From: Mucilaginibacter pankratovii
GTDB lineage: Bacteria > Bacteroidota > Bacteroidia > Sphingobacteriales > Sphingobacteriaceae
Assembly: GCF_014773265.1 (NCBI RefSeq)
Contig: NZ_JACWMY010000012.1
Location: forward strand, 124,001-188,000
Direction of reading: 5' to 3'
DNA: 64,000 nucleotides
Below the pieces are notes generated by a model. That model was not told where the DNA came from and searched no databases. It was given only the letters and a program-made list of their open reading frames with translations. Below, piece after piece: positions 5,309-36,815 of the stretch; position 1 is the stretch's first letter, and the number at the start of each line of letters is the position of its first letter. A program made the position numbers and the translations under genes.

Positions 5309-5899
5309 TTAGATTTTTGAAAAATTCTTTAATAGTTGTTCGCCGTACGTGCCGGATTTTTCTGGGTGAAACTGCACGCCATAAAAATTACCCCGCCAAA
5401 TTGATGCCGAAAATTTGTGGGTGTAATTTGTTGACGATAAAGTATATAACGGGTCATACTCAATAAAGTATGAATGTACAAAGTAAAAGTGTGATCCTGT
5501 TGGAATATTTGCAAAAAGTGGGTTTTCTTTTTCGGGGAAGACTTGATTCCAGCCGGTGTGCGGAACCTTAAACCCATCCGTATGCGGGAATTTTAGCGTT
5601 TTGATGGGGAACAAGTCCAATAAGTTGCTGTCACCTTCCTCGCTGTAAGAAGTTAACAGCTGCATACCCACGCAAATACCCAGGGTAGGTTTATCCAATG
5701 CCTTTATGGCAGGCACCAGCCCGGTGCTTTCCAGCTTGTGCATGGCTGCGCCGGCGTGGCCTACACCGGGGATAATATAGCGGTCGTACTTTTCAAAATC
5801 GGCTTCGGTGCTGATCATGCCGTAGGCGATGCCCAGCCGCTCTAAAGTAGCAGTGAGCGAGAAAATATTGCCGGCGCCGTATCTTATTATACCTATCAT
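5309..5899 (-). CDS. hisH: HisH: imidazole glycerol phosphate synthase glutaminase subunit
   Basis: A class I glutamine amidotransferase that feeds ammonia to HisF. The nucleophile is in LGICVGMQLL, the oxyanion region in IPGVGH, and the His/Glu of the triad in VQFHPEKSG. I start at the ATG at 5899 (MIGIIRYGAGN, 196 residues). The longer frame from a TTG at 5911 would reach into the adjoining CAGTTTGC repeat. Confidence 0.96.
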   Translation of the reverse strand: MIGIIRYGAGNIFSLTATLERLGIAYGMISTEADFEKYDRYIIPGVGHAGAAMHKLESTGLVPAIKALDKPTLGICVGMQLLTSYSEEGDSNLLDLFPIKTLKFPHTDGFKVPHTGWNQVFPEKENPLFANIPTGSHFYFVHSYFIEYDPLYTLSSTNYTHKFSASIWRGNFYGVQFHPEKSGTYGEQLLKNFSKI

Positions 5900-5901
5900 T
5901 T

Positions 5902-5988
5902 CAGTTTGCAATTTCCAGTTTGCAGTGGGCAGTTCTCAGTTTGCAGTGGGCGATTAGCAGTAAAAACTGCTTTTTGCAAACTGCCAAC
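5902..5988. repeat. CAGTTTGC word palindrome (hisH-hisB gap)
   Basis: Several copies of CAGTTTGCA or CAGT on the left are answered by AAAACTGC and GCAAACTGCC on the right. It fills the 92-base hisB-hisH gap to within four bases of both coding regions. Same family as 9632-9720 and 57669-57763. Confidence 0.75.
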
Positions 5989-5991
5989 TTT

Positions 5992-7140
5992 TTACAAAAG
6001 TCCTTTTGTGCTTGGTAAAACCATCTTATTTACATCCCTTTTTACCGCCATTTTTATGGCTTTGGCAAAGGCTTTAAATATAGCTTCTATTTTGTGATGT
6101 TCGTTTTGCCCTTCTGCTTTTATGTTGAGGTTGCTTTTGGAGGCATCGCTAAAGGATTTGAAGAAGTGGTAAAACATCTCGGTTGGTACATCGCCAACCT
6201 TTTCGCGTTTAAAATCGGCTTCCCAAACAATCCAGTTGCGCCCGCCAAAATCAATGGCCGCCTGTGCCAGGCAATCATCCATCGGCAGGCAAAAACCATA
6301 ACGCTCTATCCCCATTTTATTGCCTAAGGCGGTGGCTATCACCTCGCCAAGCGCAATGCCGGTATCTTCTATGGTGTGGTGCTCGTCGATATGCAGGTCG
6401 CCTTTAGCGGTTACTTCCAGGTCGATGCCGCCGTGACGGGCTATCTGGTCAAGCATATGGTCGAAGAAGTGCAAACCGGTTGACACTTTGGCTTCCCCGG
6501 TACCGTCAAGGTTTAATTTGATATAGATATCGGTCTCCTTAGTTGTGCGGCGGTGTTCTATCACGCGTTCACCTAATTTCAAGAATTCGTAGATGTCTTT
6601 CCAATCGGTAGTTTGCAGGGCCACTACGCCGGCAATATCGCTGTCAATCTCTGGTTGAAATTCTCCGTCGCCTAAACCTGACTTATTGTTGATCCAAATA
6701 GCTTTTGCGCCTAAATTCTTCGCCAGCAAAACGTCATTCTTCCTGTCGCCTATGGTGAAGGAATTTTTAAGGTCGTATTTTGTTTCGTCGAGGTATTGTG
6801 TTAACAGCCCTGTCGCCGGTTTGCGGGTAGGGGCATTATCGGCAGGGAAGGTTCGGTCGATAGCCTCGTACGTGAAATGCACGCCCTCGTTTGCAAAAGT
6901 TTTGATGATGAGGTTATGCACCGGGTAAAAAGTGTCCTCTGGGTAAATCGAAGTACCCAGGCCATCCTGGTTGGTAACCATTACCAGCTCGTAATCCAGT
7001 TCCGCGGCAATTTTTGGCAGGTATTGCAGCGCGCCGGGGTAAAAGGTAAGCTTGGCGAAGGAATCTATTTGCTCATCGGGCGTTTCGTTGATGATGGTGC
7101 CGTCGCGGTCTATAAAGAGTATTTTTTGCAGCTTGCTCAT
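5992..7140 (-). CDS. hisB: HisB: histidinol-phosphatase / imidazoleglycerol-phosphate dehydratase
   Basis: A 382-residue bifunctional enzyme. The N-terminal HAD-type phosphatase (about 1-165) begins with [10 protein letters not shown], holding the nucleophile and acid/base aspartates, and has [10 protein letters not shown] near its end. The C-terminal dehydratase (about 185-382) has the Mn-binding repeats [28 protein letters not shown] and [16 protein letters not shown]. Its ATG overlaps the hisC stop in an ATGA, a sign of translational coupling. The fusion removes the need for a separate histidinol phosphatase. Confidence 0.97.
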
Positions 7141-31036: not shown

Positions 31037-31591
31037 TTATTTTTTTGTCGTAATTAAAGAATAAACGGCCGAATCGAGAAATTTGCCATTATAGTAAAAG
31101 TTCTCCCGGAAGTATGCCTCGCGCACAAAGCCGTTACGCTCCAACAGCTTTATGGATGCCAGGTTGCCGGGGTTTACATTGGCCTCGATAGAATGCAGGT
31201 TAATACTATTAAACGCATATTTAATTGCCTCAACCAAAGCTTCTTGCATGTAACCCTTGCCTTGATGTGCGGTGCTGAGCATATATCCAATTTCGGCGCG
31301 GTAATTAACTTTATCCATTTGCCAAATACCAATGCTGCCAATTAGTTCTTCGCTGCCGTGCAGGCTTAAGGCCCATAAAATGCCCTCGTTTTTTTGGTGC
31401 AGATCGAGTATCAATTTTATCCAGCTAATTGCCTCATCAATGGATTTTGCGGGTGGCCTATCTATATATTTCATCACTTCCGCATCGCTTCGCATCGCAA
31501 AAGCGGCATCCGCATCGCCTATAGTGAGCATGCGCATGGTTAAACGCGACGTATTTATTGCCGGGAAGGGATGCAAATTAATATCAAGCAT
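31037..31591 (-). CDS. GNAT acetyltransferase, RimJ/RimL type
   Basis: 184 residues. The family pattern is clear: TSRLTMRMLTIGDADAAFAMRSD at the start, GSIGIWQMDKVNYRAEIGYMLSTAHQGKGYMQEALVEAIKYAF with the acetyl-CoA phosphate loop, then IEANVNPGNLASIKLLERNGFVREAYFRENFYYNGKF. Such enzymes acetylate the N-terminus of a protein or a small molecule with acetyl-CoA; the substrate is unknown. A near-match -7 box (TATATTTA) lies about 20 bases before the ATG. Confidence 0.92.
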   Translation of the reverse strand: MLDINLHPFPAINTSRLTMRMLTIGDADAAFAMRSDAEVMKYIDRPPAKSIDEAISWIKLILDLHQKNEGILWALSLHGSEELIGSIGIWQMDKVNYRAEIGYMLSTAHQGKGYMQEALVEAIKYAFNSINLHSIEANVNPGNLASIKLLERNGFVREAYFRENFYYNGKFLDSAVYSLITTKK

Positions 31592-31709
31592 AAGGAGTTT
31601 TTTTACCTGTAAATATAAAACATTTAAAAAGTACCTGCCTGTCGCAAAAGAAATAGCCGAACTATTTTCGGCTATAATTGTAGTACTAAAAACATTTAAA
31701 CACGATATA

Positions 31710-32204
31710 ATGAAGAGTTATTTTATGATAGGTATGCTTGCCCTGGCATCATGCGCCGGCAACGGAAAAAAAGGAGCGGATACGGTACAAATGGATAGCG
31801 GTAAAACAGATACCGCATATGCAAGCAAAACAAATACGCCCGCTCAAAATATGGAGTACTGTTTTGTGCATACCGACGGGACTGCCGCGCAGGATACTAC
31901 TGCCGTGCATTTGGTAATAAATGCCAATAAAGTAAGCGGAGAAATGAACTGGCTGCCAAAAGAAAAAGACCGGCGGAAAGGAACCCTATCGGGTACTTTA
32001 GATGGCGATAAGATAAATGCGGTATGGAGTTTTATGCAGGAGGGGCAAACGGATACCATGACTGTGGCCTTTAAGCTCTCGTCGCAGCAGCTGGCACAAA
32101 AGCCTTTTACTGTTGATGCTAAAAACGGTCGCCAGCAGTTGGATAATAAAGCCGATTATACTATTATATATAATATGGATAACTGCGATAAATTTCGCAA
32201 ATAG
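31710..32204 (+). CDS. Small lipoprotein
   Basis: 164 residues from the ATG at 31710. The signal peptide MKSYFMIGMLALASCAG ends in a good lipobox (LASC), so the mature protein is lipid-anchored at Cys15 in the envelope. The mature part is Thr/Lys-rich for about 30 residues and then forms a beta-rich domain: YCFVHTDG, DTTAVHLVINANKVSGEMNWLP, RKGTLSGTLDGDKINAVWSF, TMTVAFKLS. I do not recognise the family. A longer frame starting at 31332 runs through the GNAT gene and is rejected. Confidence 0.75.
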   Translation: MKSYFMIGMLALASCAGNGKKGADTVQMDSGKTDTAYASKTNTPAQNMEYCFVHTDGTAAQDTTAVHLVINANKVSGEMNWLPKEKDRRKGTLSGTLDGDKINAVWSFMQEGQTDTMTVAFKLSSQQLAQKPFTVDAKNGRQQLDNKADYTIIYNMDNCDKFRK

Positions 32205-32249
32205 GGGATAGCTGTTTTAATACAGCCGCTTATCTATTCAAATTACTTA

Positions 32250-32283
32250 AATGCGCCGGAGCTTCCTGGTGCATTTTTTATTT
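32250..32283 (+). terminator. Terminator of the lipoprotein gene
   Basis: A 10-bp stem with two G-U pairs (32250-32259 with 32266-32275) followed by TTTTTTATTT on the plus strand. It also stands at the downstream end of the minus-strand peptide array. Confidence 0.65.
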
Positions 32284-32309: not shown

Positions 32310-32501
32310 TTAGTCAGCCTGGCCGATGTCTTTTTTAGTATCTGCCTGTCCGATATCTTTTTTGGTATCAGCCTGGCCAATGTCCTTTTTTGTAGCAGGT
32401 TTAGTGGTAGTGGTATCGCGTTTTACCGGAGTTGCTATAGTGAATGCTGATACTACGCCTGTGGTTAATATAAGTGCTGCTGCTACGATTACTTTTTTCA
32501 T
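32310..32501 (-). CDS. Secreted KKDIGQAD-repeat peptide precursor, copy 6 (last)
   Basis: 63 residues: a Sec signal peptide (about 1-19, ending VVSA), a Thr-rich linker FTIATPVKRDTTTTKPAT and three exact units of KKDIGQAD(T) at 38-63. The last unit ends at the stop codon. Each unit is led by two lysines, as in repeat-unit peptide precursors cut at dibasic sites. The units are encoded with different synonymous codons (GAC ATT GGC CAG GCT GAT, then GAT ATC GGA CAG GCA GAT, then GAC ATC GGC CAG GCT GAC), so the peptide and not the DNA is conserved. No family is known to me. It is the last gene of an eight-gene array. Confidence 0.8.
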   Translation of the reverse strand: MKKVIVAAALILTTGVVSAFTIATPVKRDTTTTKPATKKDIGQADTKKDIGQADTKKDIGQAD

Positions 32502-32559
32502 GATCTATATTTTATTAGGGGTTGTTGTTATTGTTGTTATAATTTGTTGTTGGTATTAA

Positions 32560-32751
32560 TTAATCAGCCTGACCGATATCTTTTTTAGTGTCTGCCTGTC
32601 CGATGTCTTTTTTGGTATCAGCCTGGCCAATGTCTTTTTTGGTTGCTGGTTTGGTGGTAGTGGTATCGCGTTTTACGGGAGTAGCTATTGTGAATGCTGA
32701 TACGATGCCTGTAGTTAATATTAATGCTGCTGCTACGATTACTTTTTTCAT
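32560..32751 (-). CDS. Secreted KKDIGQAD-repeat peptide precursor, copy 5
   Basis: 63 residues, identical to the copy at 32310 except for TTGIVSA in place of TTGVVSA in the signal peptide. The three KKDIGQAD units end at the stop. The 5' flank carries CCCCTAACAAAATATAGATC directly before the ATG, shared with most other copies. The 58-base gap to the next copy has no promoter or terminator, so the copies are probably on one mRNA. Confidence 0.8.
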   Translation of the reverse strand: MKKVIVAAALILTTGIVSAFTIATPVKRDTTTTKPATKKDIGQADTKKDIGQADTKKDIGQAD

Positions 32752-32808
32752 GATCTATATTTTGTTAGGGGTTGCTCTTTTGTTTGTGTTATGCTTTGTT
32801 GGTATTAA

Positions 32809-33000
32809 TTAGTCAGCCTGGCCAATGTCTTTTTTAGTATCTGCCTGTCCGATGTCTTTTTTGGTATCAGCCTGGCCAATGTCTTTTTTAGTTGCTGGTT
32901 TGGTGGTAGTGGTATCGCGTTTAACGGGAGTTGCTATGGTGAATGCTGATACTACGCCTGTTGTTAATATTAATGCTGCTGCTACGATTACTTTTTTCAT
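32809..33000 (-). CDS. Secreted KKDIGQAD-repeat peptide precursor, copy 4
   Basis: 63 residues, identical in protein sequence to the copies at 32310 and 33066. Signal peptide 1-19, linker 20-37 and three units 38-63. As in the other copies, the middle unit uses GGA for Gly where units 1 and 3 use GGC or GGT, so the internal triplication is older than the gene duplication. Confidence 0.8.
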   Translation of the reverse strand: MKKVIVAAALILTTGVVSAFTIATPVKRDTTTTKPATKKDIGQADTKKDIGQADTKKDIGQAD

Positions 33001-33065
33001 GATTGTATATTTTGTTAGGGGTTGTTGTTATCTGTTTGCTCGTTGTGATTTGTTGTTGGTATTAA

Positions 33066-33257
33066 TTAGTCAGCCTGGCCAATGTCTTTTTTAGTATCTG
33101 CCTGTCCGATGTCTTTTTTGGTATCAGCCTGGCCAATGTCTTTTTTAGTAGCTGGTTTGGTGGTAGTGGTATCGCGTTTAACGGGAGTTGCTATAGTGAA
33201 TGCTGATACTACGCCTGTGGTTAATATTAATGCTGCTGCTACGATTACTTTTTTCAT
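33066..33257 (-). CDS. Secreted KKDIGQAD-repeat peptide precursor, copy 3
   Basis: 63 residues, protein identical to the copies at 32310 and 32809. Its ATG follows CCCCTAACAAAATATACATC. The mature product after signal-peptide removal would be 44 residues with net charge from K/R and D nearly balanced. Minus strand, 63 bases after the preceding copy. Confidence 0.8.
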   Translation of the reverse strand: MKKVIVAAALILTTGVVSAFTIATPVKRDTTTTKPATKKDIGQADTKKDIGQADTKKDIGQAD

Positions 33258-33320
33258 GATGTATATTTTGTTAGGGGTTGTTGTTATTGTTTGCTCGTTG
33301 TGATTTGTTGTTGGTATTAA

Positions 33321-33512
33321 TTAGTCAGCCTGACCGATATCTTTCTTAGTATCCGCCTGTCCGATATCTTTTTTGGTATCAGCCTGGCCAATGTCTTTTT
33401 TGGTTGATGGTTTGGTAGTAGTGGTGTCGCGTTTTACCGGGGTTGCAATGGTGAATGCTGATACTACTCCTGTGGTTAATATAAGTGCTGCTGCTACGAT
33501 TACTTTTTTCAT
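33321..33512 (-). CDS. Secreted KKDIGQAD-repeat peptide precursor, copy 2
   Basis: 63 residues; differs from the copies downstream by TKPST for TKPAT in the linker, a change shared with the copy at 33575. This places it between the divergent first copy and the three identical ones, as expected from stepwise tandem duplication. Confidence 0.8.
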   Translation of the reverse strand: MKKVIVAAALILTTGVVSAFTIATPVKRDTTTTKPSTKKDIGQADTKKDIGQADTKKDIGQAD

Positions 33513-33574
33513 GATGTATATTTTGTTAGGGGTTGTTGTTTGTTTACTTGTTTGTGATTTATTGTTGATATAAA

Positions 33575-33763
33575 TTAGTCAGCCTGACCGATATCTTTTT
33601 TAGTGTCAGCCTGTCCGATGTCTTTTTTGGTATCAGCCTGGCCAATATCTTTTTTGGTTGATGGTTTAGTAGTAGTGGTATCGCGTTTGGCAGGGATAAT
33701 GGTATAAGCCGATAATATGCCGGTTGTTAAAACTAATGCTGCTGCGATGATTGCTTTTTTCAT
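33575..33763 (-). CDS. Secreted KKDIGQAD-repeat peptide precursor, copy 1 (most divergent)
   Basis: 62 residues: signal peptide MKKAIIAAALVLTTGILSA, linker YTIIPAKRDTTTTKPST and three KKDIGQAD units. The signal peptide and the linker have several changes against the other copies, but the three units are unchanged. That contrast points to selection on the unit. The 5' flank again has CCCCTAACAAAATATAAATC. Confidence 0.8.
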   Translation of the reverse strand: MKKAIIAAALVLTTGILSAYTIIPAKRDTTTTKPSTKKDIGQADTKKDIGQADTKKDIGQAD

Positions 33764-33829
33764 GATTTATATTTTGTTAGGGGTTGTTGTTATCTGTTTG
33801 TGTGTTAAATACTCTTGTTGTTTTTGTGC

Positions 33830-33973
33830 TTAATCTGCGGTGCCGATATCTTTAATAAACGGCGCTGTATTGTGTTCCACGGTAGTGGTAACCGGCTGTG
33901 GGCCCATCTCTTTGGTGCATGATATAATGATGCCCGTGCCTAAAAGTAATGCTGCGATAAATATCTTTTTCAT
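33830..33973 (-). CDS. Small lipoprotein ending in KDIGTAD
   Basis: A 47-residue frame: ATG at 33973, TAA at 33832-33830. The signal sequence MKKIFIAALLLGTGIIISC ends in a lipobox with Cys19. The mature part TKEMGPQPVTTTVEHNTAPF leads to a C-terminal KDIGTAD, the same ending as the KDIGQAD units of the adjacent array with Thr for Gln. Only one unit is present. It is transcribed in the same direction as the array, 66 bases ahead of it. Confidence 0.75.
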   Translation of the reverse strand: MKKIFIAALLLGTGIIISCTKEMGPQPVTTTVEHNTAPFIKDIGTAD

Positions 33974-33997
33974 GTTTATGGTTGTTGGTTAGGTAAA

Positions 33998-34138
33998 TTA
34001 ATCTGCTGTGCCTATATCTTTACGTACGCCTACCGATGGTTTCAAAAACACATCCATCGCAGTAACGGCGCTGCTTTTTATGCACGATGTGATGATTCCG
34101 GATAACAGGATAAGGGCAGCAAGACAGATCTTTTTCAT
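33998..34138 (-). CDS. Small lipoprotein ending in KDIGTAD (first gene of the array)
   Basis: A 46-residue frame: ATG at 34138, TAA at 34000-33998. MKKICLAALILLSGIITSC is a lipoprotein signal with Cys19. The mature part IKSSAVTAMDVFLKPSVGVR ends in KDIGTAD. It shares only the signal and the last seven residues with its neighbour at 33830, so the terminal heptapeptide is the conserved element. A promoter with a long leader is predicted upstream at 34332-34364. Confidence 0.75.
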   Translation of the reverse strand: MKKICLAALILLSGIITSCIKSSAVTAMDVFLKPSVGVRKDIGTAD

Positions 34139-34460
34139 TTTGTTTATTGGTTAAGTTGTATTAAATATTAACTCTGCGGCAATTTAAGTTTTTACTGATG
34201 CTACGAGAGCGTTTTGAACGCTTGTAACCAACGGTTTATAATTTAAATTGACGGATACTGTGATTTTTTAGGCACAACAATTTTGTAACGTAAGGTTTAT
34301 AACTTATTGTTATTCAATTAATTAAACAACACAAATATACTTATGTTTTTTAATTATCGAGAAAGTATTTAAATTTTTTTTATCTCATTTTTTCCTAAAT
34401 TTAACACATTCATCTATAGTTACTATTTATTTTATAACTTTCACCTCATTTCCACGTAAA
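34139..34460. other. Divergent intergenic region between peptide array and TPR sensor
   Basis: This 322-base AT-rich gap separates the two divergent transcription units. It holds a good minus-strand promoter (34332-34364), a small hairpin AGCGTT-TTG-AACGCT at 34208-34222 that would lie in the 5' leader of the array mRNA, and a possible plus-strand -7 box TAAATTTA at 34396-34403. No further coding frame is seen. Confidence 0.5.
34332..34364 (-). promoter_or_regulatory. Putative promoter of the peptide array
   Basis: Minus-strand TATATTTG (34339-34332) is an exact -7 box with TTTC (34364-34361) 21 bases upstream in place of TTTG. Transcription would start near 34326, giving a leader of about 185 bases before the first lipoprotein gene. 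Confidence 0.55.
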
Positions 34461-34469
34461 GTGCCTTAC

Positions 34470-35909
34470 ATGAACAAATTTAATATCCTGTTTGTATTAT
34501 TAATTATCACTTTCTCGGTTGTTGCTAAAAGTGTGCACGCTAACGTTAGCGCTAAGGATACTACAGAGGTAATTAAATTAAACAAACAAGCTTTAGACAA
34601 CCGCTATACCAGCCCCGAACAAACCATTGAAGTGGCCGGTAAAGCTCTTGTACTGGCACAGGAACTTAATTATAATCGCGGTGTTGGCGAGGCCTATCGT
34701 GTAATGGGTATCGGTAATTATTACCTTAACCAGGCGGGCAAAGCCATTGATAATTACCTTAAAGCGCTCGACGTTTTTAAATTGATCAATGATGCGCGTA
34801 ATCAAGCTAAAGTACTCAACAATATAGGTAACCTTTATCTGGATAATAATAAAGATAAAGCGCTCGAGTACCTCAACTCGGCACTAAACATAGCTCAAAA
34901 TATAGACGACCAATCGGTAAAGGCTTCCATCCTTATGAATATTGGTAACGTGTATTACCGTAACAAAAGCTACAGCCAAGCTCTTACCTACTACGATAAA
35001 AGTAACGTAATGTTTGCCGCCGTGGGCGACTCGATAAACCTCGTGCAGGTACTGCAAAACAGGGGGGTGATCTATTACAATCTGCACGAGTTTGATAAAG
35101 CCGAAAAACTGCTGCTTGCGGCAAATAAAGCAGGTAAAGAGCACGACCTTAACAAGCCGGTTGCCAGTACAAACCTTACACTCGCGGCGCTTTATATAGC
35201 GCAAGGCAAGTTTGATGATGCCAGCCGGGTTGTAACCGAGGGGCAGGCATACGCCAAAGTGCTGAAGGATGATAAACTCACCAACGATTATAACTATATT
35301 ATTTTTCAGCTGGAATCTAAACGGAAGAATTACCAGCAGGCATTGTATTACCTGCAGCTCATCTTTCACCAGGATAGCCTCATCCATAGTTCCAACGAGT
35401 CGACCCAGATAAATATGCTGCAAGAGCAGTATAAGCAGGCGGCAACGCAGCGTGAGAAGGATGCCATCATCCTGCGCCAGCAAAACGACAGGATAAAGTT
35501 TTGGGCCGTAACAGTAGTTGCAGGCCTTTTGCTTGTAGTGATAGCGCTACTGGTGGGTAATGTAAAGCGCAAGGCAAAAACCAATGCCCAGCTTACGGAA
35601 TTGAACGGCGAGGTATCTAAACAAAAAGATAACCTCGACAGGGTGAACCACCACCTCGAAGAAATTATTGATGAACGCACCAAAGATCTGCAGATAAAAA
35701 ACAGGAAACTCTCGGAGTACTCTTCTTATTTATCGCACCAGATACGGGGGCCAATAGCCACTTTACGCGGTTTAATGAACCTGGAAAAAGAAGGGTTGGT
35801 TGATGAGAAGGAATGCATCAAAATGATGGATAAATGCGTATCAGATATCGACCAGAAGATCATCGAGATGAGCGAAATGCTTAACGACAGCGGTAAAACC
35901 GTATTTTAA
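34470..35909 (+). CDS. TPR sensor with histidine-kinase dimerisation domain but no ATPase domain
   Basis: 479 residues from the ATG at 34470 (a GTG nine bases upstream is in frame). Signal peptide MNKFNILFVLLIITFSVVAKSVHA; about seven TPR motifs at about 35-330 (for example EAYRVMGIGNYYLNQAGKAIDNYLKAL) in the periplasm; a membrane segment at about 344-365; a coiled coil; then a HisKA-like helix pair with H-box SHQIRGPIATLRGL, candidate phospho-acceptor His423. The protein stops 56 residues after this His, just past the second helix. No HATPase domain follows, and the next gene is convergent eight bases away, so this is not a frameshifted kinase. It must rely on another kinase, or act as a phosphotransfer or scaffold protein. 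Confidence 0.85.
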   Translation: MNKFNILFVLLIITFSVVAKSVHANVSAKDTTEVIKLNKQALDNRYTSPEQTIEVAGKALVLAQELNYNRGVGEAYRVMGIGNYYLNQAGKAIDNYLKALDVFKLINDARNQAKVLNNIGNLYLDNNKDKALEYLNSALNIAQNIDDQSVKASILMNIGNVYYRNKSYSQALTYYDKSNVMFAAVGDSINLVQVLQNRGVIYYNLHEFDKAEKLLLAANKAGKEHDLNKPVASTNLTLAALYIAQGKFDDASRVVTEGQAYAKVLKDDKLTNDYNYIIFQLESKRKNYQQALYYLQLIFHQDSLIHSSNESTQINMLQEQYKQAATQREKDAIILRQQNDRIKFWAVTVVAGLLLVVIALLVGNVKRKAKTNAQLTELNGEVSKQKDNLDRVNHHLEEIIDERTKDLQIKNRKLSEYSSYLSHQIRGPIATLRGLMNLEKEGLVDEKECIKMMDKCVSDIDQKIIEMSEMLNDSGKTVF

Positions 35910-36437: not shown

Positions 36438-36815
36438 TTAAGAAACGTGATTCTTGCTCAGCAGTTCTTCGTAAAGTAATATTACCTTCCGCTGCAGGTT
36501 GGTAATTTCGGTTTCTCTGTCCAGTAGTTTTTTCTGGATAATGTTCAGGCTTACATCCTGGTTGCTTGGCTCTTCCACATATTCTAACGAAAGCAGATTT
36601 ACCACGCTCACTTCAAAAATGTTGGCTATCTGCTCCAACCTCGATAAGTTGATATCGGTAACACCGGTTTCAATTTTAGAAAAGGCGGGGATTGAAATGC
36701 CTAAACGGGTTGCAACATCTTCCTGGCTCCAGCCGCGCTCGTGGCGCAAAGTGCGGATGTTTTTACCTGCGGATTTGTTTGTTTTCTTTTTTATAGTTTC
36801 GCTCATCATGTACAT
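36438..36815 (-). CDS. XRE-family helix-turn-helix regulator
   Basis: Up to 125 residues (ATGs at 36815, 36809 and 36806 are all possible). The HTH_3 domain covers about residues 18-75: GKNIRTLRHERGWSQEDVATRLGISIPAFSKIETGVTDINLSRLEQIANIFEVSV, with the recognition helix around SIPAFSKIE. A C-terminal coiled coil (about 88-120, LNIIQKKLLDRETEITNLQRKVILLYEEL) probably mediates dimer formation. No ligand domain is present. The target is unknown; uvrD is the next gene downstream on this map but on the same strand upstream of this one. Confidence 0.9.
   Translation of the reverse strand: MYMMSETIKKKTNKSAGKNIRTLRHERGWSQEDVATRLGISIPAFSKIETGVTDINLSRLEQIANIFEVSVVNLLSLEYVEEPSNQDVSLNIIQKKLLDRETEITNLQRKVILLYEELLSKNHVS

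Follow-up and report, generated by a model that had tools for sequence, protein, structure and literature searches.

We propose, with a probability of about 0.55, that a tandem array of eight small genes in Mucilaginibacter pankratovii codes for the precursors of a secreted peptide ligand, and that the receptor of this ligand is the predicted periplasmic TPR sensor encoded divergently from the array, hereafter abbreviated as TPR-DHp. Both lie in a stretch of 64,000 nucleotides, hereafter called the window. If this reading is right, they form a candidate ligand–receptor pair in a large environmental family, with a ligand whose sequence is readable from the genome and whose natural specificity variants suit swap tests.

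The Precursor Array

The array comprises eight precursor ORFs, all on the reverse strand, and spans positions 32310-34138 exactly as first noted. Precursors 1 (33998-34138) and 2 (33830-33973) are predicted lipoproteins of 46 and 47 aa, with lipobox-like sequences ..GIITSC and ..GIIISC and the ends RKDIGTAD and IKDIGTAD, respectively. They are followed in the same direction by precursor 3 (33575-33763, 62 aa) and precursors 4 to 8 (33321-33512, 33066-33257, 32809-33000, 32560-32751 and 32310-32501, 63 aa each), in which a predicted signal-like N-terminus and a Thr-rich linker precede three KKDIGQAD units (signal peptides and lipoboxes were called by eye and hydropathy). The layout reported in the initial annotation is therefore fully borne out by the ORFs: six tandem genes of 62-63 aa with start-to-start distances of 249-257 and three units each, two upstream ORFs with lipobox-like ..TSC or ..ISC ending in KDIGTAD, and 20 copies of the heptapeptide KDIG[QT]AD, 18 in the long genes plus two in the lipoproteins.

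The precursor 1 type recurs at the equivalent place in other Mucilaginibacter, and precursor 2 can be aligned to lipoproteins of other genera (alignment A3, in which MKK, C, K, P and the final D are conserved); the lipoprotein profile A3 retrieves precursor 2 from its own genome with an E value of 1e-15. The C-terminal pattern is unique to the array within this genome (6.37 Mb, 34 contigs), bar two matches that we attribute to chance, one in a 35-aa chance ORF and the other without any ORF. No family in Pfam or PADLOC matches the precursors, NCBIfam gives sub-cut-off matches alone, chiefly over the signal regions, and a literature search for KDIGQAD and KDIGTAD found none.

A promoter-like box (AAAAAACAT..TATATTTG; TAnnTTTG) at 34332-34353 on the reverse strand is kept in 14 Mucilaginibacter loci, in which the box (AAAAACAT..TATATTTG) stands at a near-constant distance from the TPR-DHp gene. 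Its presence is consistent with the earlier expectation that the whole array is read as a single transcript from about 34326. Between the array and the convergent gene, an 11-bp hairpin (32249-32276, no strand assigned) is a possible terminator, but a weak one, such sites being no commoner than in shuffles.

The 18 KKDIGQAD units are written in 13 nucleotide spellings of a single amino-acid sequence. Pairwise comparison of five of the six long genes gives 3-19 nucleotide differences but 0-2 amino-acid differences. Because so many DNA spellings preserve one amino-acid sequence, the peptide is under purifying selection; the frames of the array are very probably translated and their peptide very probably matters. 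The frames of the homologs, moreover, are not routinely broken.

The Divergent TPR-DHp Gene

The TPR-DHp gene (34470-35909, forward strand) was defined by Pfam, alignments and an AlphaFold model; lying divergent from the array, it had been missed in the first reading of the window. Its product of 479 aa contains, in this order, a signal peptide, seven TPRs (approximately residues 26-300), a membrane helix (approximately 344-363), the sequence NVKRK, a coiled coil and a HisKA/DHp region. Pfam matches TPR_12 at 1.3e-19 and HisKA at 24.3 bits, slightly under the cut-off of 26.9, and gives no match for the HATPase domain; the protein ends about 56 residues past His423. This histidine, located in the SHQIRGP box, is invariant in 114 TPR-DHp orthologs. 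The TPRs are predicted to be periplasmic, since they come after an N-terminal signal peptide and precede one membrane helix that is followed by the positive-inside NVKRK. TPR-DHp is found in all 13 Mucilaginibacter genomes that have arrays, with a near-invariant cytoplasmic part and a variable TPR part.

The AlphaFold model (mean pLDDT 86.7) consists of seven TPRs, a long helix and the DHp. Its TPR part aligns with peptide complexes in the PDB, namely RapF-PhrF (Z 24.8), RapJ-CSF (Z 24.1) and NprR-NprX (Z 22.7), as well as with the Rap3T complex (Rap/NprR group, Z 22-25), and APPBP2 with its RxxGP C-terminal degron matches the TPR-DHp model at Z 28.2. Because TPR superhelices resemble one another, these matches indicate a shared fold and not ligand binding. 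The A helices of TPR-DHp carry the invariant Arg77 (TPR2) together with Asn117, Asn121 and Asn160 (TPR3-4), residues that, if carboxylate-clamp TPRs are a guide, may bind the terminal Asp. Arg77 was considered as a specific marker of TPR-DHp and rejected, for it is present in 12 of 31 controls too.

Linkage of Precursors and TPR-DHp

A divergent secreted precursor begins no more than 1 kb away from 105 of the 114 TPR-DHp orthologs for which 1 kb or more of upstream sequence is available; to count as a precursor, an ORF had to be divergent, bear a signal and either end in Asp or contain repeats. The control scan gave 0 of 10 for the ~607-aa TPR paralogs of the family, 1 of 17 for class-level TPR homologs (1/27 together) and 2 of 238 for random positions. 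The nine misses are accounted for by masked or truncated loci (L087, L088), internal repeats (L130) and lipoproteins that end differently (L218-L221, L224 and L238). No peptide genes were found beside other TPR kinases of the window's own genome in eight loci.

In the reverse search, the lipoprotein profile A3 produced 108 strong matches in 201 genomes, 94 of them within 3.5 kb of TPR-DHp. Another 11 lie on a different contig, in genomes whose TPR-DHp contig stops near that gene, and the remaining three belong to a split locus in one genome, with copies sharing IGDKTYGWD. All 42 genomes with strong A3 matches have TPR-DHp and none of the 113 genomes devoid of it gives a strong match, a result that is favoured because the profile was built from TPR-DHp neighbours. 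The two parts of the split array (L295, positions 5639-6175, and L214) carry the same IGDKTYGWD peptide, and one of the three remaining copies stops before YGWD.

At L203, L214 and L217, TPR-DHp stands away from pcrA, yet the peptide genes adjoin it all the same. Given these relocated loci, linkage through conserved synteny alone is unlikely.

Distribution and Variation of the Peptide

TPR-DHp or a close homolog is present in 88 of 201 Sphingobacteriaceae genomes belonging to 11 of 25 genera (E 1e-60), a few of the 88 carrying the longer paralog alone. A GTDB scan with the TPR-DHp alignment recovered 80 loci, nearly all from Mucilaginibacter, and a motif-bearing secreted precursor was present each time that there was enough upstream sequence. 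Outside Mucilaginibacter, the upstream genes usually code for lipoproteins of ~43-57 aa (MKK...SCKKE...P....), one to eight in number and each bearing a single terminal peptide, for example DKKDMGGWD, DKGNLGTWD, NKKDTTQWD, DKRDLGSYD or GDKTYGWD. Within the genus, arrays reach up to 12 precursor genes, and some precursors form a single gene of up to ~490 aa with many units (DKHNTGSSDL, GDKNNTGSGDLN, DKKNVGTADLN and others). Since the lipoproteins of other genera align with the second lipoprotein of the window, the window can be said to contain an amplified form of a family-wide module, in which the lipoprotein form of the precursor is probably ancestral and genes and units have multiplied in Mucilaginibacter. 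A distinct distal precursor of ~57 aa ending in PKSDIATAD closes many Mucilaginibacter arrays (e.g. L057 and L132) and is missing in the window.

The consensus of the peptide across species is approximately [KR]xx[LIVT]Gx[A/W/Y]D, variable between species and uniform within a genome, with the ending AD in Mucilaginibacter and WD, YD, FD, MD or GD elsewhere. Cores of the same genome agree even across precursor types with unrelated N-terminal parts: between the first and the last precursor of a genome, 1.35 of the last five positions differ versus 2.26 after shuffling (p 0.0005, n = 57). We do not claim invariance of the final Asp, because cores were collected by demanding this residue and the lipoproteins of L218-L221, L224 and L238 end otherwise.

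Two adjacent basic residues occupy positions -8/-7 in about half of the Mucilaginibacter cores and in 39% of those elsewhere, while KHNTGSSD, KNNLATAD and KGNLGTWD are among the cores without a basic pair. General dibasic processing, which had been suggested for the array, is consequently rejected. The accompanying comparison with precursors of repeated signalling peptides has gained ground from the family-wide conservation of the genes, the selection on the peptide and the fixed linkage to a receptor-like TPR gene.

Covariation of Peptide and TPR Domain

Peptide distance correlates with TPR distance once PcrA distance is removed, with a partial r of 0.25 in Mucilaginibacter and 0.41 in other genera (permutation p 0.002), bearing in mind that partial Mantel removes phylogeny incompletely, as does the shuffling of labels. 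In other genera nothing is left of the PcrA correlation after TPR distance is removed (-0.04). At the level of single sites, 15 of the top 25 TPR columns covarying with the residue before Asp fall in concave A helices, against a background of 37.5% (p 0.02), foremost in TPR4-5; this site-wise signal is suggestive only, for it partly mirrors the split between A and W among genera.

Comparison with Known Systems

In RRNPPA systems, a Sec-exported propeptide encoded beside its TPR receptor yields peptides of 5-10 aa, situated C-terminally or internally and sometimes in 1-4 copies (PMC11343458, PMC10075063). As in Rap-Phr, NprR-NprX and AimR-AimP, a small propeptide gene here adjoins a TPR-receptor-like gene; the array precursors show what look like signal N-termini and constant cores of 8 aa, and TPR-DHp has TPRs by Pfam and a predicted structure of Rap/NprR type. 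However, RRNPPA receptors are soluble intracellular proteins whose peptides are imported by Opp, whereas TPR-DHp is predicted to be periplasmic and membrane-anchored, with a DHp output. RRNPPA systems have been described in Bacillota, while the array belongs to Bacteroidota, where precursors are often lipoproteins and can be encoded by as many as 12 genes or by a multi-unit gene of ~490 aa. Because the defining intracellular receptor is absent and the phylum is different, we place the array and TPR-DHp outside RRNPPA, the best reading being that they are analogous, not homologous, to Rap-Phr and its relatives.

TPR-DHp shares with two-component histidine kinases the DHp (HisKA) region and its phosphoacceptor His, the Pfam match being below cut-off, but is not a standard histidine kinase because the ATPase domain is missing. 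It also resembles FimS, the TPR sensor kinase of Porphyromonas gingivalis, in combining a TPR sensor, a membrane helix and a kinase-type output, even if its match to the FimS model (1.8e-16) is far below the cut-off of that model. Unlike FimS, TPR-DHp has no ATPase domain and does have adjoining peptide genes, which other TPR kinases of the genome and the class do not. The signal of FimS is unknown (PMC11053733), and the present pairing suggests, in a form open to testing, what the periplasmic TPR sensors found in Bacteroidota, FimS included, may bind. In Hop/CHIP (EEVD) and APPBP2 (RxxGP), a TPR superhelix reads a short free C-terminus, and the Asp-ended peptide of the array might be read in an analogous way, although these are eukaryotic cytosolic proteins, unlike TPR-DHp.

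Knowledge of quorum sensing derives mostly from Pseudomonadota, Actinomycetota and Bacillota (PMC10075063). For Bacteroidota, the literature that we searched describes no peptide signal that is encoded in the genome and paired with a receptor, and a search of a subset of papers for peptide signalling with TPR sensors in this phylum found no such system. We suggest, tentatively and at somewhat less than even odds, that Bacteroidota possess a form of peptide communication of RRNPPA-independent origin, with species-specific secreted octapeptides, a periplasmic TPR receptor, a DHp without its own kinase, coevolution of receptor and ligand, and dozens of ligand copies in Mucilaginibacter.

Proposed Mechanism and Alternative Interpretations

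According to the ligand–receptor reading, the conserved promoter-like box near 34340 would drive transcription of all eight precursors. Judging from their sequences, these would leave the cytoplasm through Sec, two of them becoming lipoproteins and the other six remaining soluble, either in the periplasm or outside the cell. Proteolysis would free a peptide of ~8 residues ending in Asp, KKDIGQAD or KDIGTAD, a step suggested by the constancy of the cores, the variation of the spacers and the usual occurrence of a free C-terminal Asp; in several Mucilaginibacter the repeat is internal and not C-terminal, so that a free Asp would need cleavage by a protease. The peptide may then bind to the concave face of the periplasmic TPR superhelix, its species-specific residues setting specificity, as covariation and fold would suggest. 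Binding could shift the long transmembrane helix and thereby the cytoplasmic DHp, which without an ATPase might serve unlinked two-component proteins in phosphotransfer, as a phosphatase or as a docking partner. Amplification in Mucilaginibacter would raise the dose of ligand. One point against this reading is that no partner is known here for the ATPase-less DHp, and the question arises of how such a conserved domain passes the signal.

The lipoproteins of other genera mostly start with CKKEE, CKKES or CKKDE, and the optimal signal for surface export of lipoproteins in Capnocytophaga is C-X-K-(D/E)2 (PMC5080379). The fit of CKKEE and CKKDE to this signal hints at surface exposure of these lipoproteins, and we lean towards a signal that acts outside the cell. 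For lipoproteins that may face outwards, contact with a TPR domain in the periplasm would call for uptake or release, which weighs against the ligand–receptor reading. The same match to the surface-export signal (PMC5080379) is what would be expected if the precursors were structural or surface products serving display, adhesion, matrix formation or ion binding, with TPR-DHp regulating or monitoring their expression and the peptide not being its ligand. A regulator linked to its target would give an identical gene neighbourhood, and a bulk surface product would fit both the many copies per genome and the Thr-rich linker. We nevertheless regard this explanation as unlikely, because many loci outside Mucilaginibacter have a single lipoprotein of 45-50 aa with one peptide, which is little for a matrix, and because the peptide ends diverge with the TPR sensor between species while being uniform per genome, as for a ligand. 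An adhesive, metal-binding or display role, taken by itself, leaves the linkage to the sensor unexplained.

The precursors might instead serve as an internal gauge of the envelope, occupying the TPR sensor from the periplasm or the outer membrane and reporting the load of secretion or lipoprotein sorting in the same cell, without any release or signalling between cells. The predicted periplasmic location of the TPRs and the widespread, probably ancestral, lipoprotein forms agree with this possibility, as does the result that, in the gene lists of the genus and of other genera, no gene for a dedicated exporter or protease consistently accompanies the precursors. We consider it rather improbable, however, given that diversification of the ligand at the species level is hard to square with a purely internal gauge and that the motif resembling a surface-export signal suggests surface exposure. 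Multi-core precursors are known among Bacteroidota RiPPs, and in NCBIfam the lipobox region shows weak matches, below the cut-off, to a chryseobasin-related MNIO peptide, but a peptide natural product array (RiPP, bacteriocin-like or toxin) with its own regulator is very improbable, since the same gene lists show no conserved gene for a maturase or modifying enzyme, a transporter or immunity, the cores are without Cys or other usual modified residues, and the weak matches cover mainly the signal region.

Flanking Genes and Related TPR Proteins

A small gene of XRE-type HTH (36438-36815, reverse strand) lies between TPR-DHp and pcrA and is syntenic in Mucilaginibacter; it was rejected as a fixed partner, being missing beside most TPR-DHp genes outside this genus. 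The usual far neighbour of the peptide genes codes for an M20-family dipeptidase (L184, L296-L298 and many Mucilaginibacter loci), in place of which the window's clade has another gene. On the forward strand, a 290-aa ORF (31332-32204) overlaps a GNAT gene of the opposite strand; the real gene in this interval probably starts at an internal ATG (MKSYFMIGMLALASCAG..) and codes for a lipoprotein that members of the window's clade keep next to the array.

Class relatives of ~495-510 aa from two other families (L267-L270) have the layout of TPR-DHp without the ATPase domain and no adjoining small lipoprotein gene. The ~607-aa TPR paralog, found in one genus of the family (L226-L237) without peptide genes, lies mostly beside a gene for a LytTR-type response regulator, a neighbour that is a possible hint to the output partner.
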